Made by a program: the position numbers and the translations under genes. Positions 43,579-58,253 of a DNA stretch of 64,000 bases are shown here, one piece after another. Numbering within the stretch: position 1 is the stretch's first letter; each line of letters starts with the position of its first letter. The notes below the pieces were generated by a model. The model was not told the DNA's origin and did no database searches. It saw nothing but the letters and a program-made list of their open reading frames with translations. Origin of the DNA: Craspedostauros australis (taxonomy: Eukaryota > Bacillariophyta > Bacillariophyceae > Mastogloiales > Achnanthaceae); assembly GCA_026770025.1 (NCBI GenBank), contig JAMXDE010000011.1:434001-498000 (forward strand). Reading direction: 5' to 3'.

Positions 43579-45640
43579 TCATTCGGAATTGCGGTGGCCT
43601 CCCTTCCCTTTGCCTGCAGGTTTGTATGGCCTCTTTGGTTTGGTGAGTTTACGAGCAGGGGCACGCGGCTTGGAGGCTTTGGATCCCGCTTTGTCATTCG
43701 GCTCGTCTGAGTTGCACGCAGCACCAGGCACCTTCGATTGTGGCTTTCGCGGTTTGCGATGCCGTCTTGGCGCATCCTCACTGTTTGCTTTGAGCAGTGT
43801 GGAGCTTTGGACTGGCTTGTGTTGATCTTCGCTCCTCTGCTTGGACCTTCTTCGGGATACGCGCACATTATTGACTGACTGATTTGATTGTCCACACTTT
43901 GCTTGTTGTCCATCTTGCTTGCGAATGTGTGTTGCTGGAGCAATGGGAGAGTGCACAGTAGCGCTTGAATCGAACGGCAGGTTGGCCAAATCCATTTTTG
44001 AACTTGTCAGTGAAAGCATTTCCGCAGCATGCAAATGCGCAATACGATGATTGAGAAGGAGACTACTGCAACTGTCACTTGCGATTTTCATGTGCAAGCG
44101 CCTGCGCATGTACATCAAGCTGATGCTCACGCTCATCACGCCACTCGATCGCAAACAACACGGCACGACGCATGGGCGATCGGTATTGCGTACCTTGCTT
44201 CTTTCCTCGATGTTTCGGACTTGCTCTTCCTTGCTGTCTTTCGTTATGTCCGGGGGATGGCGGCGTTGGTGGTGGTTGCGTTGACGGAGCCACCAGCGTA
44301 TGCTTCTGCGAAGGTTTCGATGCGAATGTGAGAGCCATTGACGATGTTGCAGAATTCTGCTTCGCCCGGCCACCCTCGTTTTTCTGTCTCGAGGTTTGGC
44401 AGGGATTGTGGGACTGTAGGATTTGGTACTTCTGATCACCAACCTTCTGGTTATTGCGCTGGCGGGCACGGCAAGGACGGGAGTTTGACTTGGCGGGTGG
44501 TTGACAGAGCTGGCGCGATTTCATGACTTGCTTCAAGATCATCTCTTGCTGCTCCTTCGCCAATGCAAGGCGGCGCCTTTGCTTCTCTTCTTCGTCGTTC
44601 GTGTCTTCGACCGGCGGTGTCGCAAATACGTATTCATCGCGTTGGTACGTTTGCGATGGCGCCGCGGAAGGAACCCTGTCGATGCTGCCGCTTGTATTGG
44701 CGTTGTTGCAGCCGACGTGGTCACAGTCTGATTTGTCCACATGGCTTGGCGAGGCCGCAGTATCAGGTTGTGCTGGGTCGTTCGAAACATCTGCCGGCGT
44801 GCAGCAGTTGTCGTCCGTTTTATCGGACCGAACCTGTCTTTCTCCAATACTGGACCGCAACGCCTTCGCAATGCCCGCCCATGCGGTGACCTGTACGGGA
44901 GCTACCATGTTGTCTGGTGCCGTTGTAGTGGGCGTTGGATCGCGACGCATGGAATGTGTGAGATGTCCCTGCTCAACCTGTGGTATTCCATCGTCGTTTG
45001 TGGCAGAGGTGCACGGTGAGAACGAAATCGACGGACTGGTTGCCGTTGCTGACAACAATGAAAATGATGACGATATCGACGGAGAGGGAGATGCTGGCTC
45101 GCTCCCTTGCGCGCACTTTGACGATGCCACATCTTCGAGCGCCTCCCAGCAAGTCTTGGATGTGAATGCAGATGTCGATGACGAGCGCGACGCGAACGAT
45201 GCGCTCGTGTTGACTTGGGGGGAATGTCCAAGTACGTTCAGCTTGCAGGCATGGGGCATCCAGCCTTTCTCTTGCTTCAAGGATAGTGTTTGTACTGGCT
45301 TTGGTGGTGCGGAGATCTGCGCATCGATATGTTCATCGTCGTATTTGCTCCCGATTGCACTTGGCCAGGTGAAGCGATCACTCCGAGAGCGGCGATAGCC
45401 GTGATGTCCACGATGGCTGTGGTTGGCTTGGTGCCACCGACTTCTGTCGGGATTGGGAACCATCTGCGGGTCTTCTGGTTGCGCACGTCGCGATCTGAGC
45501 AGCGCCTTTTTTGCAGATCTCTCTCTCTCCCTCTCTCTCTCTTTGTGTGTCTTGCCTATCTCACTTGGTGTCGTTCCATGCGAATGGATCAGGAATTGAC
45601 TGCACTGCGATAGTATGATAGCACCAGCACGAAGATCCAT
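43579..45640 (-). CDS. Tentative low-complexity protein, possibly two exons
   Basis: The frame 45640 to 44075 looks coding: Ser/Thr-rich disordered sequence with a clear charged helix (DEEEKQRRRLALAKEQQEMI) and a basic C-terminal part rich in Gln and Pro. A second frame, 44002 to 43579, continues in the same style (PRRHRKPRKPQSK, then KPRAPARKLTKPKRPYKPAG before the stop). One way to join them is complement of join(43579..44002, 44079..45640), a 76-nt intron with weak sites, giving 661 residues. Start is uncertain: ATG at 45640 is first, but the ERERERER run that follows comes from a CT microsatellite, so translation may begin later, for instance at 45463. No family recognised; disordered and basic. 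Confidence 0.35.
45515..45541 (+). repeat. CT-rich microsatellite
   Basis: Imperfect (CT)n, read on the minus strand as GA units; it would encode Arg-Glu repeats if the tentative minus-strand gene starts upstream of it. Confidence 0.85.
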
Positions 45641-45781
45641 CGACAAGGAATGTAATGAGACACAGCGACCTTTGAACTCGCGAATATCTCCTTTGTCAAC
45701 GTCGAAGTCGGTTGCTGCGATGATGGCAAGAGCAAGCGAATGGGCGGTCTCACTCCAGAACGCTTCCAAACACGTGGCCAC

Positions 45782-47234
45782 GAAGTAGAGTGTGGCGCAC
45801 GTATGGGATGGTCTGCTGTTCTATTTGTTCTGCACCGAATGACTGGACTGGTACTTGTCGCAGGCTTGGCTTGTGTTTGGACTTGGCTTGTGGGCAGATA
45901 CAAAGGAATTGGAGAGCATGTCATGTTTGGGAACCTCCTCCGGATACCCCTCATGCATTGCCCTCGTCTCTCGCCTCTCTTCTCTTCTGCCGTACGCATG
46001 CCTGTTGGGGAGGTCTGCACTTGCCATTCTGTTGTCGTGCCCTTGAGGTCTATCTTGGCACAACACAGGTGAAGAGATGAGATGAGAAGTGGTTGGAACT
46101 TCTTGCGTTTTTGTGACACGAATTGTGTCAGTTTTCTCTTCCGGGATTCAATTCAATTGTGTGAGAGGGTTTGATTGGTTCAGACACGTATTCTTGGACA
46201 TTCCTGGGAGTTCGCAGTGGACTCATACGATTTACGGAATTCAATCACCCACGAAATTGGTCTAGCGAGTCGATTTTAACACATCAACAATATCCGAAAG
46301 GTCGAATAAAGTGTCATAAATCAGCTGATACTTCAAAAAGAAAGGAAATTGATCATTTTCTGCTTACATCGAGAAGACGAAACACAAATGACGCAACAAC
46401 AAGTTGAAAATGACACGGCGAACAACGGCTGCGCGCAACACTGGCACACGCAGAGCGGAAGCCACACAATCACGAGGTGGACCTCACATCGACTGCACAG
46501 GAGGGACAAGTCGCGTCGTCACAGAGAGAGAGAAGACTGAGGGCATTCAAAAAATCAATCGACCAACCAACCAACTGGTTGCAACAAACGCACGCACACG
46601 CAAATACATAAATACATACTCGACACTCATCTGAGAGTTGAGCAAGGCGCATTGTTGGAAAGGAAGAAGGGCGATAGGGACATCGCACTCGAAGCAGCTT
46701 GTTCTGGACATCCCTTGACGGCGGCTGTCGACTTGGCCTGGGTGTCATTGGCACGACGAAACACCGGTCATTGCCACCCATCTTGGCGTCGGCACGGAAT
46801 ACTTGCTGTCAATACGAGCCCTCTCTCTACTTGCAGGGTCATTCGTCGACAGCACGGAGTATTGCTATCACCGCCACGGCAACTTCAACGGCAACGTTCA
46901 CCATCGACTCCCGCCTCTGCGTTGGGCTCGCTGGCTGACTTTCCGAGCAGCTTCACAGACGAGCGTCCGTTGGAACCGCATCTGCGGCGTCCATCTCATC
47001 CTCCGCAGCCATTCGATCTTCACGAGCGGGCAGCAGCACCAGTGAGCATCAATCAAGGCGTCGCGCCCCCATCAGCTCAGCTCAGTTTTACTCATCTGGC
47101 CTTGTTGGCGGCTCCATCCGCCTTGGCACAGAAAATCAACGTCGAATTGCGACCAGCCATCTGAGCCTTGCACCTGCCAAGGTCTTTCCTCATAAACTCG
47201 AATACTCCGCTTGGTTGCGATTGCCTGACGAACC
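45782..47234. promoter_or_regulatory. Region upstream of the giant FGDF gene, possible extra exon
   Basis: 1,453 bases. Mostly featureless, but a good polypyrimidine tract and acceptor (CCCTCTCTCTACTTGCAG) ends at about 46840, followed by an open frame to 47164 with coding-like composition (residues such as ALGSLADFPSSFTDE). It has no ATG. It could be the last exon of an unrecognised gene, or 46840-47234 could be the spliced 5' leader of the FGDF gene. I cannot decide. Confidence 0.35.
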
Positions 47235-50200
47235 ATGGAAGATCTCTTCGCTAATGTGGCGACCGCCAATGATGAGGAGGAGTTTGGATCGTTCTCTGCT
47301 GCTGCAAATCCAACACCCTCGACCGGCCTTGCAAGTCAAAACGCGAATGGCATCACTTCACGTGCCGACACCATATCCGACCTCTTTGCTCCAGGCAATC
47401 TGGCCAACACGACCGCAGGAATGAAGGTCGAAGACGAAGAGGACGACGACGACGACGACGATGAAGAAGAGGAGGGGAGCGGAACGGGCTTTTTTGCGGA
47501 ACAAATGAAGCAACGTCGCAAGCAGGTCTTGCAATCCGGCGGCTTCTCCAAGCAACTGCAAAAGCACCGAGACGTCCTCAAGAATAATTGGGAGGCACCA
47601 GAGGAGGAAGGAACTGGAGGCAGTGACTTGGGTTCCAGCTCCACCTTTGGTGCTGGTGTCAATGGCCATGTCAATGGAATGGCGAATGGTTACGGCATGG
47701 GGAACTCCACAAACGCGAACATGAATGCAAATATCATTGCCAACGGCAGTAGCAGCTCCTTCGCGACGCCGCAGTCCAAATCGAACAACGCACCCGCGTT
47801 GACCCCAATGAGCAACTTTGCTTCACAAATCGCAATGGCGGCAACGCCTCTTCGCGACAACAAAACTTCATCAATTGGCATGGGCGCCACCAGCAACATG
47901 AATTCCAACATGGGTATGGACATGAACGGCATGATCGCAAGCAACAGCATGAATGGAATGGTGAATAACGCGGCTGACCCCAATCAATTCGATCCGAACA
48001 TGATGATTATGATGATGAATGCAATGCAACAGGTGCAGCAGCAGCAACGACAACAACAGCAACAAACGACGTCAACTCCATTCTCCCCCGATGCAAACAT
48101 GGCCATGAATATGACTATGGCCATGCAACAGATGGCCTCACCGATGATGAACAACGCACCGGCACTCTCAACACTGACTGCTGCCAATGTCAGCAGCAAT
48201 CAGGACGACGGTTTCGGAAGCTTCGACTCGGCACCGCAAACGCAAGCGCAAACTCCAAGCATTCCAATCGCCAGCCAGCTTCCCGCTGCAGTGGAAAATG
48301 ATTTCGGGGACTTTGACTCCGCACATACACAGGAAGCCACACCAGCTGCAGCCACCGGCACTCCGGCAGTCGTCGAAGATGATGATTTCGGCAGCTTCGA
48401 TTCGGCACCACAAACGACATCGGCAGCAGAGATCGGACCGACCATGGTGGAGTTACCAATTGACGCCGCGTCCGCCTTGCCAATGCCAACGTCGTTGAAT
48501 ACCATGTCTGTGTCTGATGCCTTCGCAAGCTTGGAGCCCGCGATGCCCGAAACGACAACGCAGGCAGTGGACACGCCATCTGAAGACGAACCTGCCAACA
48601 GCAACGCCAATGAAGTGGCGGAGAGCGCAGCTGAAGTTCCCATGGACGCTGCTGTCGGCACAAACATGAACATGGGTGGCGATGCGACGATGATGCAGCA
48701 GCCAATGGATACCGAGAACATGTCTGAAGAAACGCGCAACATGATGATGGCGGCTGTTCAGATGGCAATGCAGATGAGCAATAATCCATCCATAGGGTCC
48801 ATGGACATTGCCACATCTGGTGCACAGATGCCATTTTCACCACAACCAACTCCATTCGCAGACTCAACCAAGAAGAGCACGAGCAGCAACGACGAAGACG
48901 ATGAGGATTTTGGCACCTTCGAAGACGCGGTGCAATCGACTCACACATCGACACCCAGTGAAGCCATATCATCCATGTTTGCTCCCGAGCCAACCGATGC
49001 CATGGACGCAGATGATACCGATGAATTCGGCGACTTCGAAGACGCCACGCAAACACTCAACGGTCCCTCCGCCGAATCGCAACCAACTGGCGACACTGAT
49101 GAGGATGCGTTTGGCGCTTTCGACGATCTTCAGCCACCATCTGCACTCTCTACTCTCACCGGTCCCACAATTGTGGCCATTCCAAGCCTTGACGCAACTG
49201 CGCAGGGTGCCGACGATGATGCATTTGGTGCCTTCGAAGATGCCCCCGGCACTGCATCACGAAGCGAGGCCGCCAGCAAAGACGAAGAAGGCGATTCGGA
49301 TGGATTTGGGGCTTTTGAAGACGCTGCAAATGATGGCGAGAGCACCGACGATTTCGGTGCCTTTGAGGATGCAAATGCTACAACGCCAGATGCAACCAAC
49401 GCCCTATCAAGGTCAACATCGGGTAGCGCAGAATTTGATGATCCATTTGCAGGACTTCCTGTCCCAAACAATGATGTATCGGCGTTGGCTGAGCCCGCTC
49501 TGTCTGGCGCGGCAGAACCTGCTGCAATGACGACAGCAAACATAAACTCCTCCACAATGCAACCAATGAAAGTGGACAACACCCAACCGCAAGGAACTGG
49601 TAATGATGACGACGACGACGATGACTTCGGCGACTTCGATGAGGCCATGCCATCGGGCGACTTGACACAACAACCTGGGCCAACCACGATGGTTGCCAAC
49701 ATCCCTCAAGCCACCAATGAGAACGGCGGCGGCGAAGAGGCGGAGGAGGAGGAGGAAGATGACCCCTTCGCTGGAATTGGCCCCGACAGCTCCGCGACAC
49801 CATTGCCAGCAACCATGGGCTTGTCGAGCGCAATGCAAGTGCCCGCTCCACCCGCCATCGACATGGCAACGATCATGGAACCATCCTCCCTCATGATGAC
49901 AACAGCAGATGAACTGCTTGCATCAGGAAATCCTATCGCCGATCATACGGCAAATGGAATGAACGCCAATGATGAGGATGGCGACTTCGGCGACTTCGAT
50001 TCTGCCCCACCATCCATGGAAATGAATTCTGGCCAGGAAACAGCACAAGAAGCAGCGCCCGATGACGACGCCTTCGGCGATTTTGAAGACGTAACCCCAG
50101 CAAATGCAACAGACACGTTCGGGTCGAACGATCAAGCTGCGGTTCCTGCGGCACAGTCATCGACATTTGAATTGCCGTCACCGACTGCATTTAAACCTGC

Positions 50201-53200
50201 CTCGGTCGGTCCAGCTTTATCGAACGCAGTCGCCAATCCAGCCGATGCAATCAGCAGCATGATGTTCGGATCTGCTGCAGATCAGCCCATGGCGCCGGTG
50301 GATGCGCAGCTGAACGGTGGATCCATACTATCGATGACCAACGCACAAACTACGTCGATGGAAATCGCACCGACAAATCGAAATGGGAGTGACGCAAACA
50401 ACAATGGGCAAGAAGATGACGATGACTTCGGTGACTTCGAGGCGGCCACGGCAGACGCGAAGGCGTCCGGCGACGTTCCAATTGACCAGAAGCCTCAAAC
50501 GTTTGGAGTTGCTGCAGTCGCGGACGGCACGATGCCAACCAGCGATGCTGCAACCGACGCCTTCAGTGCGTTCGATGCGATCGCTCCCCCGGTAAAGACA
50601 GTCATGAGCGTCGGCGCGAACATCGACCAAAGTCCGCCAATAGACGACGACGACGGCTTTGGAGACTTTGAAGACGCCATGCAAGACACCACGCCCACAC
50701 CTGAGCAAGAGACCGCTCAGTCTTCCATCATTCGGAATGGCGGAGCAAGCGACGACGACGACGAGGAATTTGGCGACTTTGAGGACACACAGCAGCAGCA
50801 GCAGCAAGAGCCTCCGAGCGCTATGGAAATGACCACCAATATGAATGCAGGTGCCGACGCCGACGAAGATGCGGATGCATTTGGCGCATTCGATGATGGT
50901 GCGGCTCCCGAAATGCAATCGGGACCTTCCACCGCCGCCGCAACGCAGCCTTCTGAGTCGCAAGACTTCGATGACCCATTTTCTGGTCTCCCACAAGCAC
51001 CCGCTCCGACACTCATGCCAGATGCACCGACGGAAACAACATCGAATGATCTCTTCGCAGACTCATCATCCCCAGACGAAGCAAATGCTGAAGGTGATGG
51101 AATAGCCGCTGGCACTTCAGCACCACCAAATCCACGGTCAGAGGTCAGCGCGAACGTGTCACAAGCACCAGAAAATGAGACGACAGCTGAGCAAGACGCA
51201 AGCGACCCGTTCAGCCATTTCGATTCTCTGGCACCTCCGGCACCAGTTCTGGGGGAGACGTTGGAGTCCATGATGAATGGCGCCGAGGATCTGGCCACAC
51301 CTGTAGCAGCTGCGACGCTTCCTGTCGGCGGCGACGTGGATGGAGGTGAAGACGAAGAATTTGGCGACTTCTCGGATCCCGCGGGAGTCGTGGCGCCAAC
51401 CGAAACACCGATTTCCACGATTTCAGACACAACCGTGATACAACCAGTCGGCCACAACAACGAAGGCGAAAACGACGATGACGAAGATTTCGGGGACTTC
51501 AGCGGCGTTGCTCCAACCACAGATACAACTACAGCTGCAGGTGCAACCGCAAACGCAGATACAAACACAAACATGAGCGGCGGCGAGATGGATCTGACAC
51601 CGACTGCACTGAACGGACTCGTTGGTGACGCAGCTGTCACAGCGGACGTGAACCCGAATGTCCCAACCACGGACGATGTCGATCTGTTCAACGCAGCTTC
51701 CCTGTCTCGATCGGATCCAGCGCAAGGCATGACGCCGCCACAGCAGCCGAGCACAGATCTCTTTGGTTTTTCAGACACCCCAGTCGTGACATCGACCTCA
51801 GACGCAGCTGGAGGCGCGCTGGGTGTTGCGCACACGCAAGTCATTTTGCCGGAGCCAGTGGCAACTACAGCAGCAGCTGATGAAGATGATCCATTTGGTG
51901 CGTTCGATGCAATTTCGCAGGATCCCGCCGGGTTGGCGCAGCCTTCACAAGAACCGACGCTGACGATGAAATCCACAGAGACCGAGGCAACAGATGATTT
52001 CGGTGACTTTGGAGCCGCACCATCGGCGGAATCCAATATCAATAGCACAGCTCTTGCAAGCGGCGACATCGCGCAGGCCAAGGCGGTTCCAGAATCGGCA
52101 GCAGACAACGGAAACGACATGAGGTTTGGAGACTTCGGATCAGCAGAGGCCGAGGAACGCACCACGCAACCACCAGGTGCAGATACCACAGGAAACGATG
52201 TTTTCGATGCATTTGCGGGTGCTGTAGCCGTTCAAGCACACGATGCTGACGCAGCTCTCGCATCCAAAGACAATGCCGACGACGATGACTTTGGCAACTT
52301 CGATGGGCCAACAACGACAGAATCTCAGCCTGCGGAGGATTCGGGCGCGGACTTTGGCGATTTTGGAGGTGCCTCACAAGCTGAAAACGCAAAGGGCGAA
52401 GAAATGGAAGCAACCCCGGATGCATTCGGTGCCTTTGACGTCATCGCTCCAGCGCCTCCGTCCGTCGAAACGCAGCCAGTCGCAGCAGGGAGCAGCGAAG
52501 ACTTTGATGCCTTTGGTGCATTTGATAGCGTGGCTCCTGTCCCGTCCTCAGAAGGACCAGCAATAACAATCGACGTGCTAGAACCAGCATCAGACAATGA
52601 TGCATTTGGTGCCTTCGATAGCATCCCATCCTCTGATGTCCCTCAGCCCAACGAGAGTGAAGCTGTTCCAAAAGCTGACGGTGACAACAACAATGATGGC
52701 GCTCCAAATACAGCAGCTCCACCGACGGAAGATATCGATGATTCATTTGGTGACTTCGGTACGACCGCTGTTCCTGCAGATGCTCCGGACAGCAAAGTGG
52801 GAGAAGCAGCTGTGTCCACCTCTCCAGATGCAGAGCAGCAGCAAAGCCCCGAACAGCAGGATCTATTCGGTGCGTTCGAATCAAACAACACTGCGACACC
52901 CAGTCCGTCGTCCGCCGACGGCAACACAGCTACATTGATTCCAAATGATGACTTTGGCGACTTTGAGGATGCCGAGAAGAACAACAACGGATCCACCGCC
53001 GCTGGACAAGATGATGCTAATCCCTCCATGGCAACCGACGATGATACCTTCGGTGACTTTACTGCAAACAACAGCGCCATAGCGACGACCGGCGAATCCA
53101 AAGAAGTTGCTGCCATGGATACACCCAAGCCGAACGAAGATGGCGATAAAGAAGCCGACTTTGGAGATTTTGGAGGATTTGAAGCGGCCAACGCAGGCGC

Positions 53201-54647
53201 AGATACCCCAGAGACGTTCCATCAAGAAACGGTCGAGGAAGCAGCACCAAAGAAAGATACTGCGAACGATCATGACGTTGGCGACGACTTCGGTAATTTC
53301 GACACGCCCGAGATGAATGGTCATGCGGCACCAAAGGATACCGATCAGGCCAATGTCTCCGCAGACTGCGACGACTTTGGTGACTTTGGTGGATTCGAAT
53401 CGGCACAGGATGACCAATCAGGGTCAGCCGCTGCACAGGCAGCAGATTCCGTTAACGAACCGAAGGAAGAGGATGATGGTGCAGACTTTGGCGACTTCGG
53501 TACAGCAGCAGCCTCAGCTGAGGTCGCAGACGAACCGAAAACGGAAGCTCTTGCGATGGATGCCACGAACGCCGAGAATGACGACGACGACGATTTTGGT
53601 GACTTTGGTGACTTCGACTCAGCACCAGCATCCCAAGCAGCAGAAAACACTCAAGCTTCAGCTGCAGCTGCTGCTACTTCAGATGGGACAGCTCCCATCC
53701 CTTCCGCACCTGCAGATTTATCCGACGACTTTGGCGCTTTTGATGATGACTTTGGCGATTTCGATAGTGCTGACCCTGACGCTGGTGCCGCCGCGCACAC
53801 GAACACACAAGGCGACGATGCAGGTGCTGCTCCGACTTCTGGACAAGCATCGGCCGACGTCGAGGACGGCGACGACCATGACTTCGGCGACTTTGGAGAC
53901 TTCGATGCCGCCCCAACCGCTGCTGAAGCACAACCACCGGCAGAACAACAGAAGATCGTGTCTGCGAGCCCGGCGGATGACGGTGATGATGACGGATTTG
54001 GGGACTTTGACTCAGCGGCAAATGCTACGAAGCCGCCAGCAGCTGCCGAGGCAACGCCTCAGCAAGCATCTGCTACTTCCGTGGCCGCCGCCGTCACATC
54101 ATCTGATGGTAACGACGACGACGATGACGGATTCGGCGATTTCTCCTCCAATGATGCGAATGCGTTCGAGACAGAGATTCAACAACCGCAGGCGACGCAA
54201 TACTTCCTCAAGGATGATGCTCACTACGGACGTGCCGCAGCATTTCTGTCGCGCCTGGCCGAGCTTCCGCCGACCAAAATCAGCAGCAGTGCTGATGCCG
54301 ATGCCGACGTCACAGTAAATGCGAAGCCTCTATCGTCGTTCGTGGCACCACCCGACGCCGGCGCCAACACCAACACCAACAGTACAACGAAAAGCAACCA
54401 AGGCGAAAGCTCCATACTGGACATCATCTCGAGTCTGCACAAATCCAAGCAGAAGAAGACCTCGAAGAGCTTTTACAACAAGGCGTCTGGAGGTTACTCT
54501 CACTTTTCGTCTCCGCTGCCAGCACAAGCGGAAGGCGCCCCACTTCCCAACAAGAAGCTCTCACGGCGACGGTCATCTGCGCAGATGAGAATGCCGAACG
54601 TCCCCGATGTGTTGCCGATCGAATTGCCGGCCAGCACAGCACGGTGA
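47235..54647 (+). CDS. Giant acidic FGDF-motif protein (putative clathrin-adaptor accessory scaffold)
   Basis: 2,470 residues in one uninterrupted 7.4-kb exon. Nearly all is disordered, rich in Asp, Ala, Thr and Pro, with about 45 FGxF motifs set in acidic clusters (DDDFGDFDSA, DAFGAFDD). By hand I count 26 FGDF, 11 FGAF and single figures of FGSF, FGNF, FGTF and FGGF, plus five DPF and several DLF motifs. FGDF fits the aromatic-Gly-(P/D/E)-aromatic peptide bound by AP-1 gamma-ear and GGA ear domains, as found in gamma-synergin, aftiphilin and epsinR; DPF binds the AP-2 alpha appendage. N-terminal features: EDLFANV, a basic helix (about 92-118) and a Met/Asn/Gln-rich segment (about 145-300). 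The C-terminal 150 residues look more conserved (YFLKDDAHYGRAAAFLSRL; SSILDIISSLHKSKQKK; basic RRR). Function is inference from motifs. Confidence 0.85.
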   Translation: MEDLFANVATANDEEEFGSFSAAANPTPSTGLASQNANGITSRADTISDLFAPGNLANTTAGMKVEDEEDDDDDDDEEEEGSGTGFFAEQMKQRRKQVLQSGGFSKQLQKHRDVLKNNWEAPEEEGTGGSDLGSSSTFGAGVNGHVNGMANGYGMGNSTNANMNANIIANGSSSSFATPQSKSNNAPALTPMSNFASQIAMAATPLRDNKTSSIGMGATSNMNSNMGMDMNGMIASNSMNGMVNNAADPNQFDPNMMIMMMNAMQQVQQQQRQQQQQTTSTPFSPDANMAMNMTMAMQQMASPMMNNAPALSTLTAANVSSNQDDGFGSFDSAPQTQAQTPSIPIASQLPAAVENDFGDFDSAHTQEATPAAATGTPAVVEDDDFGSFDSAPQTTSAAEIGPTMVELPIDAASALPMPTSLNTMSVSDAFASLEPAMPETTTQAVDTPSEDEPANSNANEVAESAAEVPMDAAVGTNMNMGGDATMMQQPMDTENMSEETRNMMMAAVQMAMQMSNNPSIGSMDIATSGAQMPFSPQPTPFADSTKKSTSSNDEDDEDFGTFEDAVQSTHTSTPSEAISSMFAPEPTDAMDADDTDEFGDFEDATQTLNGPSAESQPTGDTDEDAFGAFDDLQPPSALSTLTGPTIVAIPSLDATAQGADDDAFGAFEDAPGTASRSEAASKDEEGDSDGFGAFEDAANDGESTDDFGAFEDANATTPDATNALSRSTSGSAEFDDPFAGLPVPNNDVSALAEPALSGAAEPAAMTTANINSSTMQPMKVDNTQPQGTGNDDDDDDDFGDFDEAMPSGDLTQQPGPTTMVANIPQATNENGGGEEAEEEEEDDPFAGIGPDSSATPLPATMGLSSAMQVPAPPAIDMATIMEPSSLMMTTADELLASGNPIADHTANGMNANDEDGDFGDFDSAPPSMEMNSGQETAQEAAPDDDAFGDFEDVTPANATDTFGSNDQAAVPAAQSSTFELPSPTAFKPASVGPALSNAVANPADAISSMMFGSAADQPMAPVDAQLNGGSILSMTNAQTTSMEIAPTNRNGSDANNNGQEDDDDFGDFEAATADAKASGDVPIDQKPQTFGVAAVADGTMPTSDAATDAFSAFDAIAPPVKTVMSVGANIDQSPPIDDDDGFGDFEDAMQDTTPTPEQETAQSSIIRNGGASDDDDEEFGDFEDTQQQQQQEPPSAMEMTTNMNAGADADEDADAFGAFDDGAAPEMQSGPSTAAATQPSESQDFDDPFSGLPQAPAPTLMPDAPTETTSNDLFADSSSPDEANAEGDGIAAGTSAPPNPRSEVSANVSQAPENETTAEQDASDPFSHFDSLAPPAPVLGETLESMMNGAEDLATPVAAATLPVGGDVDGGEDEEFGDFSDPAGVVAPTETPISTISDTTVIQPVGHNNEGENDDDEDFGDFSGVAPTTDTTTAAGATANADTNTNMSGGEMDLTPTALNGLVGDAAVTADVNPNVPTTDDVDLFNAASLSRSDPAQGMTPPQQPSTDLFGFSDTPVVTSTSDAAGGALGVAHTQVILPEPVATTAAADEDDPFGAFDAISQDPAGLAQPSQEPTLTMKSTETEATDDFGDFGAAPSAESNINSTALASGDIAQAKAVPESAADNGNDMRFGDFGSAEAEERTTQPPGADTTGNDVFDAFAGAVAVQAHDADAALASKDNADDDDFGNFDGPTTTESQPAEDSGADFGDFGGASQAENAKGEEMEATPDAFGAFDVIAPAPPSVETQPVAAGSSEDFDAFGAFDSVAPVPSSEGPAITIDVLEPASDNDAFGAFDSIPSSDVPQPNESEAVPKADGDNNNDGAPNTAAPPTEDIDDSFGDFGTTAVPADAPDSKVGEAAVSTSPDAEQQQSPEQQDLFGAFESNNTATPSPSSADGNTATLIPNDDFGDFEDAEKNNNGSTAAGQDDANPSMATDDDTFGDFTANNSAIATTGESKEVAAMDTPKPNEDGDKEADFGDFGGFEAANAGADTPETFHQETVEEAAPKKDTANDHDVGDDFGNFDTPEMNGHAAPKDTDQANVSADCDDFGDFGGFESAQDDQSGSAAAQAADSVNEPKEEDDGADFGDFGTAAASAEVADEPKTEALAMDATNAENDDDDDFGDFGDFDSAPASQAAENTQASAAAAATSDGTAPIPSAPADLSDDFGAFDDDFGDFDSADPDAGAAAHTNTQGDDAGAAPTSGQASADVEDGDDHDFGDFGDFDAAPTAAEAQPPAEQQKIVSASPADDGDDDGFGDFDSAANATKPPAAAEATPQQASATSVAAAVTSSDGNDDDDDGFGDFSSNDANAFETEIQQPQATQYFLKDDAHYGRAAAFLSRLAELPPTKISSSADADADVTVNAKPLSSFVAPPDAGANTNTNSTTKSNQGESSILDIISSLHKSKQKKTSKSFYNKASGGYSHFSSPLPAQAEGAPLPNKKLSRRRSSAQMRMPNVPDVLPIELPASTAR

Positions 54648-55002
54648 GCGTTACAATGCGGATAAGCCTGCAGACTACTGTTGTACGCACTAGTAGAGCA
54701 CTCCGCTCTATTGGCACTATGCAAACCGTTGCCATCAAGAAGTTTCAGTTCCCGAATGTGAAATAGAAGAAATCTAGCAATACGGAGAATGGACACCCAT
54801 ACAATTGCCTTGCTCCTGCCGTGTGCACAAGTATAGTACACGCCAGTCCAACTTTCGTACTCGACTCTCCGACTGACCCGTACATACTCTACAATGGCTG
54901 CTGATGCCACTGCCACTGCAATCACGATTGTGTATGTAGATTGCTCGTTGATTATTGTGCGAATTTCAGCTATCGGTCATGAGAATGGTACGGATGGACC
55001 GA
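54648..55002. other. Intergenic, between two 3' ends
   Basis: 355 bases between the FGDF gene and the convergent CIA30 gene. Nothing supported. Confidence 0.5.
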
Positions 55003-56010
55003 TCAGTGCTCTCCGTGAATGCCGGTTTCATTGAAGTTGACAGCCCGTATTCTGACCAAATCGAACTGAAAGTCGCCGGACATGCCATCCATGAGCGTGA
55101 GGCCGACGTTCTGAATGCGGATGGTCGTGTCAAGCTCGCGCTGTCTCGCTCTCATCTTTCCGCCGGCTGTGACGAAGAAGTGCCGAAAGAGAAAGACGCT
55201 GGAATCGAATCGTCCGGGATGGAGGGATTCGTCGAAGTTCTCATCCGGCTGGATGGTCGGCGGGATGCTCAGCGAGCACTGGAAGATATCGCCAGGGATC
55301 ATGGTCTCCACCTGCAAGCGCAAGGCGTAATGGCGACCGTCGGAACGGCATGTGACCTCCAATCCGTTATACCGCCCGTCCAGATCCACCCCTCTGAAGG
55401 CAAAATCGGGGCTGCGGATGGCACAGAAACCAGAGCGATTGACCTTGCTGTTCTCTGGCACCGTCGTATCGATGTGCCCGTGCCACCGCACGAAGGGTGT
55501 GAATTCATCCACCTCTGCCGAAACGTGGTCTTTGCGGTTGTCGTCGCTGTCATCATTGTCGCTGGCGTCCTCTTCGTCTTTCTGCTGCTGCTGCTGCGTT
55601 TGAGGTTGACTGTTCTTGCGTGATTGCGCAGCCAGAAGAATTTCCTCCAGCTCCTTCAGATCGTACTGCAGGCCTTTGTGACCATCCTCAGAAACACCCA
55701 GATGCTTGTTCTGCTCCAACCGAAAGTACTTGCGATAATCCTCCAGCGTGGCGATGAGCTGCAAGTTGGCCTTGGAGGCACCTCCAATCACGGAGTCATC
55801 CGATATCCTCCACCCGCCCTTCTTCGCGGTTTCATCCACCAGGACCGCATCCATTGCATCCATGGGGTTGGAAAAGTCGAACAGTGTGATGGGTCCGTTG
55901 GGATCGCGATCTGGTTCCAACCAACGTTTGCGGGTCAGATCGCCCTGGAACTTCATCCATCGCCGCAGGCGCCGGGCTGTTGAGGAGACCAGCGCGTTAC
56001 GGAAAAGCAT
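55003..56010 (-). CDS. NDUFAF1: Complex I assembly factor CIA30 (NDUFAF1)
   Basis: 335 residues. CIA30 helps assemble the membrane arm of mitochondrial complex I. Basic, Ser/Arg-rich N-terminus (FRNALVSSTARRLRRWMKF) suits a mitochondrial presequence. The family pattern is clear: FDFSNPMDA, WRISDDSVIGGASKANL, then RSGFCAIRSPDFAFRGVDL, YNGLEVTCRSDGRHYALRL, VFLFRHFFVTAGGKMRA and the end IRIQNVGLTLMDGMSGDFQF. An insertion of about 80 residues, with poly-Gln and Asp/Glu runs (about 125-165), separates the GG-S motif from the rest and is absent from animal and fungal proteins. Related CIA30-domain proteins occur in plastids, but this presequence lacks a signal peptide. Confidence 0.87.
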   Translation of the reverse strand: MLFRNALVSSTARRLRRWMKFQGDLTRKRWLEPDRDPNGPITLFDFSNPMDAMDAVLVDETAKKGGWRISDDSVIGGASKANLQLIATLEDYRKYFRLEQNKHLGVSEDGHKGLQYDLKELEEILLAAQSRKNSQPQTQQQQQKDEEDASDNDDSDDNRKDHVSAEVDEFTPFVRWHGHIDTTVPENSKVNRSGFCAIRSPDFAFRGVDLDGRYNGLEVTCRSDGRHYALRLQVETMIPGDIFQCSLSIPPTIQPDENFDESLHPGRFDSSVFLFRHFFVTAGGKMRARQRELDTTIRIQNVGLTLMDGMSGDFQFDLVRIRAVNFNETGIHGEH

Positions 56011-56864
56011 GGCGTCGCTATCTTGTTGTACTCGAGATTATTGTAGCCGCCTGAGGATTGATTAGACTCTCTGCTTGATACCTATGATTCTCTTGTGCGA
56101 GTATGCTTCGAACAGACGGGTGGGTGGTGGACGACCACAAGAGTGGAGTGAGGAAGTGCCGACAGCGAATCTCTGGTGTCGAAGATCGCAATTGTCTTTT
56201 TCAGTGTCGTTGGCGCATTCTCGACTAGATCGATTGAAAACAAACATCAAACCTCGGAATGGCGCGAACGAATAACGCCCATTAACGTCCCGAACAGTTT
56301 TGGGCGACATATATACCGTCTGCACATAACACAAACACAGAATGAAACGAACAGAGCGGAGAAGTCGGACAGCTTGTTCAAAGGAAACGGACTTCGGGAA
56401 TAAGTCGTGAACGAAACGATGTTGTCGACACGTGGAAGTCAGTGAATGGCCAGAAAGACCAGATTCAGTCCAGACAGTTTCAGTCCCGCAATATGCTCGT
56501 CGAACATTTTGTGTTTGGTTGTGTTTGTTTCATGAGAAAGCACATCACCCCAACCCAACGCACGAAGTTTGTTGGGGTCATTCATGGGCGAACAACATCG
56601 CCATCTCGTTCCAGCGAAGAAAACACGCGTGGACGAGGCACCACGACCAAGAACGACACCCGCTATGACCAGCCTTGATTCTCGCCACTCTGCAGTTGCA
56701 TGAGTTGGAGTGCCCCGCAGAGTACTCATCCCCCCTACTTGCGAGTACCATTGCTGCATCCAAGCAAGAGCTGATCCGGAAGAACGAGAGTCGAAGCATC
56801 ATCCATTCCACGTACTCCCACCTTTAGTTGAACGAATGCGATCTGCATCATACTCGTACGCACG
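56011..56864. promoter_or_regulatory. Divergent intergenic region
   Basis: 854 bases between the CIA30 and Nudix genes. Expected to hold both promoters. Only short frames without domains. Confidence 0.4.
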
Positions 56865-57812
56865 ATGAGGAACAGGTTGAATCTTGGGATGCCGCAAAGC
56901 ACAGCAAGCGCCGCCAACATTGCCAACAACAATGGCAGTAGCAGTCAACAGGATGCCACGACGGCCTCTTTCAATGGCAGATCAAACCACAAGGACACGT
57001 TGCAAATCCAGAGGGATTTCTTCGCCATCCTGTCGCTGTGTCTAGCGGGAGTTGTGATCTTCTCGCAAATGGGATTTCATACTGCTGTGGACAATACGAG
57101 TATTCCTGCAGGCTCCGGCAGTGGCAGCCGCCTGGCAACTTCCGAAGGCGACTGCGCGTTGTTCTTTGGCAAATACAACGGAGAGCAGTACTACAGCCCG
57201 GAGAGCGGCAGCGTCGGGAAGCCCAAATGCTTGCTGGAATCCAAATGGATGAAGGTGTCGCAACATTCGGTGAAGTTTCCAGGCACCGACGGGGTCATCG
57301 ACGACTGGCTGTGGGTCGATTACCACGATCGCATCAACGTGCTGGTCGAGATGGAGACGCAACCTGGCGACGAGCGCCAATTCTTCGTGTTCCAGCAGAC
57401 CAAGTACGCGCTGGAGGGTCGGCAATCCTTGGCCATCATCGGTGGCATCATCGAACCGGGAGAGTCCGCGGAGGCGGCGGCACGGCGCGAAGTCGACGAG
57501 GAGATGGATGGGATCCAATGCACGGACTTTCATTTCTTGGGACGGTATCGCACCGACGTGAATCGTGGCGTGGGATGGCTGAATTCGTTCCTGGCGTCGG
57601 GGTGCAAGAAGAATCCGAAGCACGGGAAGCATCAGTTCTTGGAGGACGAAGTGGGAGCCGCCGATACCGAGAAGCAGACGATGAAGACGATCTCGTTATC
57701 TCGAATTCAACGGGCGACGCTCGATGGCGAATTCATCGAGGCGCAGTGGACAGCGACAGTGGCATTGGCATTGATGCATCCAACATCACGTATCGCGGAC
57801 CAATCGACGTGA
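56865..57812 (+). CDS. Membrane-anchored Nudix hydrolase
   Basis: 315 residues. Nudix enzymes cleave nucleoside diphosphates linked to another moiety, using metal bound by the Nudix box. Here the box is GIIEPGESAEAAARREVDEEMDGI (written in pieces: G-IIEPG-E at about 196-202, REVDEE at about 210-215). The Gly of the usual EExGU ending is displaced by one residue. The preceding strand (FFVFQQTKYALEGRQSLAIIGG) resembles ADP-sugar or ADP-ribose pyrophosphatases. A single hydrophobic segment (51-70, FFAILSLCLAGVVIFSQMGF) after a hydrophilic, Asn/Ser-rich N-terminus predicts a type II membrane protein with the enzyme in the lumen or outside. No intron. Substrate not determined. Confidence 0.87.
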   Translation: MRNRLNLGMPQSTASAANIANNNGSSSQQDATTASFNGRSNHKDTLQIQRDFFAILSLCLAGVVIFSQMGFHTAVDNTSIPAGSGSGSRLATSEGDCALFFGKYNGEQYYSPESGSVGKPKCLLESKWMKVSQHSVKFPGTDGVIDDWLWVDYHDRINVLVEMETQPGDERQFFVFQQTKYALEGRQSLAIIGGIIEPGESAEAAARREVDEEMDGIQCTDFHFLGRYRTDVNRGVGWLNSFLASGCKKNPKHGKHQFLEDEVGAADTEKQTMKTISLSRIQRATLDGEFIEAQWTATVALALMHPTSRIADQST

Positions 57813-58253
57813 TGTTGCACATAACAGTGGACTGCAGATAATTGTATCAGTACATATGACATCGCCCATCCACTCAATGGTATTGGTGCTGGCCGATGTA
57901 GGTGTAGAAGTGGATGCGCTAATTTGTACTCTAGATCGTACGAGCAGTCCATGGTGCTCTGGCGCCCTTGGTGTGTCTTGTGTTGGTTGCTTGGAAACTC
58001 AAGTCCTGTCTGTGACGCATCTCCAACCCAGTCACGAAACAACTCGTTCACACCCACCCTACCAGGAAAGATCATGCCACTGCGTCTGTAGATCGCGTGG
58101 GTCCGGATACTGGAGCACTCATGCTCCAACAAGAGCGCAAACAGGCGACCATGATCGTCAATAAAGGAGATCGCACCATACTGGAAACAACACCCATCCA
58201 ACTCCTAGTACTCTACCAACATCCACGCACACGCACGCACTCACACAGCAACT
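57813..58253. promoter_or_regulatory. Intergenic between tandem plus-strand genes
   Basis: 441 bases between the Nudix and methyltransferase genes. The right end is ACGCAC-rich leader. No gene supported. Confidence 0.45.

Follow-up and report, generated by a model that had tools for sequence, protein, structure and literature searches.

Ligands of the gamma-adaptin ear conform to a short consensus, aromatic-G-[PDE]-[aromatic/L/M], with a glycine after the first Phe as a gamma-ear feature, and the ear ligands of well-studied cells carry few such sites each. Gamma-synergin (SYNRG/AP1GBP1) binds the ear through acidic Phe motifs, of which it has only a few, and aftiphilin, p56/CCDC91 and epsinR also possess acidic FGxF-type sites, again few in each protein. 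Mammalian gamma-synergin is described as binding the gamma-adaptin ear and working with AP-1 (PMC3444471, PMC9988951), and as having an EH domain (PMC8927860). No reports of FGxF arrays in diatoms, of the kind described below, were found among the matches listed from the open-licence literature.

The window analysed here is a stretch of 64,000 nucleotides from the diatom Craspedostauros australis (assembly GCA_026770025.1, contig JAMXDE010000011.1, positions 434,001 to 498,000). Translation of bases 47235-54647 (+) gave a frame of 2,470 amino acids with a terminal stop only, bearing out the length claimed in an initial annotation of this DNA made from its letters alone, while the other two plus-strand frames across the same bases contain 66 and 129 stops. 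The features of the locus, in window coordinates, are:

47235..54647, + strand: FGxF-array protein of 2,470 aa in a single open frame (stop included; from translation)
47481..47597, + strand: basic stretch, aa 83-121, net charge +5, part of it amphipathic (by hydrophobic moment)
47637..48212, + strand: Met/Asn/Gln-rich low-complexity linker, about aa 135-326, without FGxF
48213..54143, + strand: main FGxF array, aa 327-2303, with 44 of the 45 motifs
48507..48524, + strand: SVSDAF, aa 425-430, one copy
53160..53180, + strand: overlapping double motif FGDFGGF, aa 1976-1982
54342..54644, + strand: C-terminal tail, aa 2370-2470, net charge +8
55003-56010, - strand: CIA30 (complex I assembly factor) gene, convergent with the array gene

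The start codon lies in the context ACCATGG, with an in-frame TGA three codons 5' of it. Only 355 bases separate the stop of the array frame from the 3' end of CIA30, which leaves scant space for an extra 3' exon, and no adjoining exons for an EH domain or a synergin-type C-terminal domain were seen by eye in the three plus-strand frames of 45500-47300 and 54500-57900. A 467-aa open frame runs antisense to the array (window 50717-52120, - strand) and is probably a codon-bias shadow.

When recounted on the translation, the chain contains 45 FGxF motifs (26 FGDF, 11 FGAF, 3 FGSF, 2 FGNF, 2 FGGF and 1 FGTF), so that the earlier hand count was right for every class, and also five DPF and six DLF, where five and "several" had been given. 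Composition shuffles of the chain contained a mean of 0.49 and a maximum of 4 FGxF (n = 2,000), and the array is not a product of chance. The motifs account for 86 of the 128 Phe residues of the chain and are spaced by a median of 36.5 aa (successive motifs, all 45). The single motif outside the main array is at aa 17, and three further overlapping doubles were found in addition to the one listed above (FGDFGGF at aa 2048, FGDFGDF at aa 2121 and 2217). The whole chain is low-complexity, Ala/Asp rich and probably disordered, with a net charge of -399, and is basic only in short stretches near its ends; the one at aa 83-121 is a candidate membrane or partner contact. No Pfam or NCBIfam domain matched the chain, no signal-peptide-like start was evident by eye, and the C-terminal tail (the last 101 residues) had no relatives in a large protein database (0 of 1,472 candidates).

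The motifs have strongly acidic surroundings: a mean of 3.18 of the five residues that precede an FGxF are acidic, compared to 0.90 for other Phe residues. Position -2 is D or E in 34 of 45 motifs and hydrophobic in one (M), and 44 of the 45 have D/E at one or both of -1 and -2, giving the chain the several acidic Phe sites typical of gamma-synergin. The 26 FGDF sites are written in 18 different DNA spellings, with TTT, TTC and all four Gly codons in use, and Tandem Repeats Finder found no tandem DNA repeats in the array; together these rule out recent tandem duplication as its origin. Such diversity of spelling argues for upkeep at the protein level and not for recent copying, and suggests that the motif may have been kept by selection on the protein while the DNA drifted.

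Measured against the gamma-ear consensus, 26 of the 45 FGxF fit, compared to a mean of 0.32 and at most 3 fitting sites in shuffles (n = 200). The other 19 lack P/D/E at position 3; the exact fit stated in the initial annotation was claimed for FGDF. A stricter GAE pattern matches only 14 stretches of the chain. The glycine after the first Phe is present in all 45 sites. The FGAF sites had previously been suggested to be weaker versions of FGDF, which is not simply so, as their flanks partly differ, with Ala at -1 in 6/11 FGAF vs 1/26 FGDF (Fisher p = 0.0012) and I/L/V at +6 in 5/11 vs 2/26. Either possibility, a weaker FGDF variant or a second type of site, would accommodate these flanks.

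Potential partners were sought in the genome of the same organism (74.8 Mb in 90 contigs), where an adaptin ear model had three matches, belonging to a gamma (L001), an alpha (L002) and a beta (L003) subunit. The gamma-adaptin has Adaptin_N and the ear, with no second subdomain within the 617-aa piece scanned; the AP-2 alpha subunit combines the ear with Alpha_adaptin_C, and the beta subunit combines it with B2-adapt-app_C. PDB matches of the L001 ear were the AP-1 gamma-1 and GGA1 ears, and it is 28% identical to the human gamma-1 ear in 3zy7, which we take to be an engineered chain. At the human positions that we take to form the gamma-ear ligand pocket (A753, K756, L762, R793, R795 and E812), the diatom ear retains A753 and K756, has M for L762 and K for R795, and differs at R793 (M) and E812 (T). 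A GGA ear, one of the ear domains named in the initial annotation, gained no support as a target, as only gamma, alpha and beta ear-type domains were found; no VHS domain was found in the genome, but the VHS search was equally blank in controls and so does not indicate absence. A Laa1/Sip1/HEATR5 homologue is also encoded. The L001 hinge (residues about 245-470) has a run of DLFG/DMFG/DLYG/DVFG sites of its own, such as NPLDLFGAP and NPMDLFGAS, which may be clathrin or ear contacts inside AP-1 itself, and it gave a weak FG-nucleoporin match under the Pfam cut-off. As regards the host, the light-harvesting family PF00504 had 61 matches in the genome, and one of these proteins was closest to FCPI-7 (PDB) and the fucoxanthin chlorophyll a/c-binding protein Lhcr11 (6ly5 and 6l4u, which we take to be Chaetoceros gracilis entries), with 324 and 318 bits respectively compared to 231 bits for the next entry, 8zeh, so that by these matches the genome is very probably that of a diatom.

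A protein search with the window chain, in which the 7,997 candidates having most words in common were scored, gave one match, P0001 (1,510 aa; E 1.2e-4; 25% identity over 28%). This match passes through motif-rich sequence, and convergence could account for it. In P0001 there are 28 FGxF and also a folded-looking C-terminal part, the latter missing from the window chain, and residues 1190-1480 of P0001 used as a query yielded 23 proteins including itself (P0001-P0023), two of them Nitzschia inconspicua IV203_019424 and IV203_022277. Only one FGxF of P0001 (residue 1198) falls within the query region, and as members of the set were picked by this C-terminal region, the arrays that they carry played little part in the choice and are largely independent evidence. 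They have from 1 to 32 FGxF per protein (median 17; at least 10 in 18 of 23), and position -2 is D/E in 283 of their 374 motifs and hydrophobic in 6, some members being near-copies. An EH domain was precomputed for 10 of the 23 and was above cut-off in all five members re-scanned, and the EH stretch of P0014 as a query recovered 16 of 23 at E 1e-3 or better, while PF25999 (which we take to be the synergin C-terminal domain) was precomputed for nine. Gamma-synergin itself is described as having an EH domain and as a ligand of the gamma-adaptin ear (PMC3444471), and we therefore call these proteins gamma-synergin-like.

Their relationship to the window chain is less direct than their resemblance to it. 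P0001 had no match in the C. australis genome at E 1e-3, the window frame included; four segments of the window chain compared with the 23 relatives gave a best E of 0.005, on motif letters, and neither the C-terminal tail nor the aa 80-330 segment matched any of the same 23. A SxSDAF module occurs in 17 of the 23, and the one SVSDAF of the window chain is matched by chance in 32 of 2,000 shuffles of it. SVSDAF is also present in the genome's own Eps15-like gene, so that the module is no proof of descent from the gamma-synergin-like set. This two-EH gene (L042; G000:C9:653-654 kb, about 156 kb past the window end) contains MSVSDAF and LFDFGG. The set has a second module, S[ILV][STD]DAFGD[ML] followed by DAPLPSL, in one to five copies in 17 of the 23 proteins. 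Homology of the window chain to the set is likely but unproven, with no match outside the motifs. The initial reading of the array as an ear ligand nevertheless has sequence support, from the gamma-ear encoded in the genome, the acidic flanks and the link to gamma-synergin-like proteins via P0001; the array is thus supported as a putative gamma-ear ligand, its binding being predicted.

The folded domains of the gamma-synergin-like set were not found in the window chain. An EH domain was absent from the window chain by Pfam, and by eye from the three plus-strand frames just upstream, and the three EH matches of the genome fall in two other genes, an EHD-like one and the two-EH Eps15-like one, both named by eye. 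The Pfam scan had no PF25999 model and the C-terminal domain was instead sought by single-protein queries: tblastn of the P0001 C-terminus gave a best E of 0.97 in the window, and no copy was found across the genome with P0001, or with the P0022 and P0023 domains alone (searched to E 10, with a single candidate scored per domain). In a control that was a genome-scaled BLASTP and not the genome search itself, the P0022/P0023 domain queries recovered 23/23 members at E 1e-3 or better, and therefore an unbroken copy of like divergence should have shown up.

DNA coding for DFGDF matched at 37 places genome-wide, 16 of them within the window frame (the reversed pattern matched 6 times), and inspection of all 20 regions containing the other 21 places found no second array. 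The highest FGxF count there was 5, in a repetitive frame (L019) that looked non-coding by eye, and otherwise 1 or 2. With 16 of 37 in the one frame and the rest scattered, the window chain is the sole FGDF array found and hence appears to be the only candidate for a synergin role, allowing for possible gaps in the assembly, domains split by introns and arrays spelled otherwise beyond contig C13. A scan for [DE][DE]FGxF gave 198 matches in the genome, and 18 of the 100 listed (contigs C1 to C13) lay within the window frame. Another 27 of those 100, scattered over contigs, were an 18-base word, GACGAATTCGGTGACTTC (e.g. G000:C1:319229), which is part of a dispersed repeat that by chance encodes DEFGDF in one frame. 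In the L030 frame, presumably NOM1/SGD1-like, a unit GFGDDFGDFL is duplicated, the copies being 118 residues apart.

Judged from its sequence, and with a probability that we put at roughly 60%, the window chain is an accessory protein of AP-1 that works in the manner of gamma-synergin. Its repeated acidic FGxF sites would bind the gamma-adaptin ear weakly and many at once, with one chain holding several AP-1 complexes together on what would be trans-Golgi/endosomal membranes, and it would probably work alongside the Laa1/HEATR5-type protein of the same genome. Its attachment to membranes or partners may depend on the short basic stretches near the chain ends. Clustering of this kind would need the ears as cross-linkers, and self-condensation is made less likely by how negatively charged the chain is; with basic residues confined to short end stretches, the idea of the initial annotation that the chain could condense adaptors is unsupported. 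Most likely this is the synergin-like protein of its host diatom, in which the EH and C-terminal domains were lost or never had and the array has grown. We put forward only tentatively, as possible rather than probable, that a "bare array" took over the gamma-synergin role, having shed both folded domains and grown its ear sites to 45, so that the number of motifs would by itself cluster AP-1. Different ears would then be served by two kinds of site, the acidic DDFGDF and a DAFGAFD after which come a hydrophobic residue and AP.

Should the likeness to ear ligands instead be convergence, the chain would be an independent acidic-Phe repeat protein with some other partner (in nuclear transport, as a chaperone, in silica formation or in storage). 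This is unlikely in our view, even though the lack of proven homology outside the repeats, of any Pfam match and of relatives for the C-terminal tail would all suit it, since the EH-bearing set has a like array, the chain has no signal-peptide-like start by eye, and FxFG and GLFG are absent, 45 of the 55 FG dipeptides lying inside FGxF. An FG-nucleoporin, which would have FxFG/GLFG repeats and few acidic residues, was considered and ruled out on the same FG counts together with the net charge.

A reading of the array as mainly a ligand of the AP-2 alpha appendage in endocytosis, or of AP-1 and AP-2 together, is quite improbable. The DPF and D[AP]FxAFD sites would then be alpha-appendage sites; the genome has an alpha-adaptin with both appendage subdomains as well as a beta appendage, and the chain has its five DPF and six DLF sites and also twelve D[APV]Fx[AHG][FLM] sites, four of which continue as FD(A/S/V)(I/L/V)AP. 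The five DPF, however, only equal the maximum of 200 shuffles (mean 1.27, maximum 5), the three FxDxF are under theirs (mean 0.90, maximum 4) and the WxxF[DE] pattern is absent from the chain, while the glycine after the first Phe, found in 45 of 45 sites, is a gamma-ear feature.

FGDF is also a published ligand of G3BP, a rival that the initial annotation did not name, and the array might act on stress granules and bind a G3BP-type protein at its NTF2-like domain. A possible partner exists in the genome, namely a protein (L016/L040; G000:C5:1390375) that combines an NTF2 domain with a weak RRM match and that matched G3BP1/2 and Rasputin in the PDB; its cleft is largely kept (human V11/F15/R32/F33/F124 are I/F/R/Y/F), but K5 and K123 of the human cleft are lost. 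A G3BP short pattern matches the chain once. FGDF is described as binding G3BP in animals and viruses (PMC4450067), and crystallography of a viral ligand is described as showing three sub-sites, of which one takes a hydrophobic residue at -2 of FGDF (PMC4967826). Alphavirus nsP3 and USP10 ligands have the core FGDF letters in common with the window array, but the nsP3 ligands are hydrophobic at -2, where the array is mostly acidic (hydrophobic in just the one site of 45), and the gamma-synergin-like set, which has the same flanks, has many EH-domain members. The flanks therefore speak against the G3BP-like protein as the partner, and we regard this reading as very unlikely. Ligands of adaptors and of G3BP are not told apart by the letters FGDF alone, but may be by what stands at -2. 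Finally, repeat-driven sequence with no selected binding function would suit the low-complexity, Ala/Asp-rich chain, but is extremely improbable given the missing DNA tandem repeats, the synonymous diversity within the motif and the excess of acidic residues before motif Phe over other Phe.

To return to the AP-1 accessory protein that we favour, comparison with known ligands places it as follows. Gamma-synergin has an EH domain and the window chain has none, the two being likened by features and not by direct alignment. Aftiphilin and epsinR have Clathrin_bdg or ENTH domains, neither of which is found in the window chain (no Pfam match), and neither a clathrin-binding domain nor clathrin boxes, as in aftiphilin, were found in it by Pfam or a simple box pattern; a FGDFGGFEAA stretch, we presume, resembles the p56 peptide. 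The gamma-synergin-like proteins P0001-P0023 are, like the window chain, acidic, and most have many FGxF at a similar density (up to 20.3 per 1,000 aa vs 18.2), and they differ from it in having a common C-terminal domain of about 250 aa and, in the 10 of 23 precomputed, an EH domain. The initial annotation had put the ear-binding copies an order of magnitude above familiar cases, yet 45 sites top this set by a factor of 1.4 and not 10 (the proteins searched being of limited length), and the density is not exceptional when one relative reaches 20.3, so that the claim holds only against familiar animal proteins. With so few sites per ligand in well-studied cells, the effect of site number has been hard to judge. 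There seems to exist a natural series of 1 to 45 sites on chains that are broadly alike, including one in which no folded domain was detected. This makes it testable, in organisms whose Golgi traffic has had little study, whether motif number alone recruits and clusters AP-1. Accessory chains that bind ears are a known kind, and what sets this one apart is its missing domains and its size, the window chain being longer than the gamma-synergin-like proteins (2,470 vs 912-1,739 aa) and richer in FGxF (45 vs 1-32).
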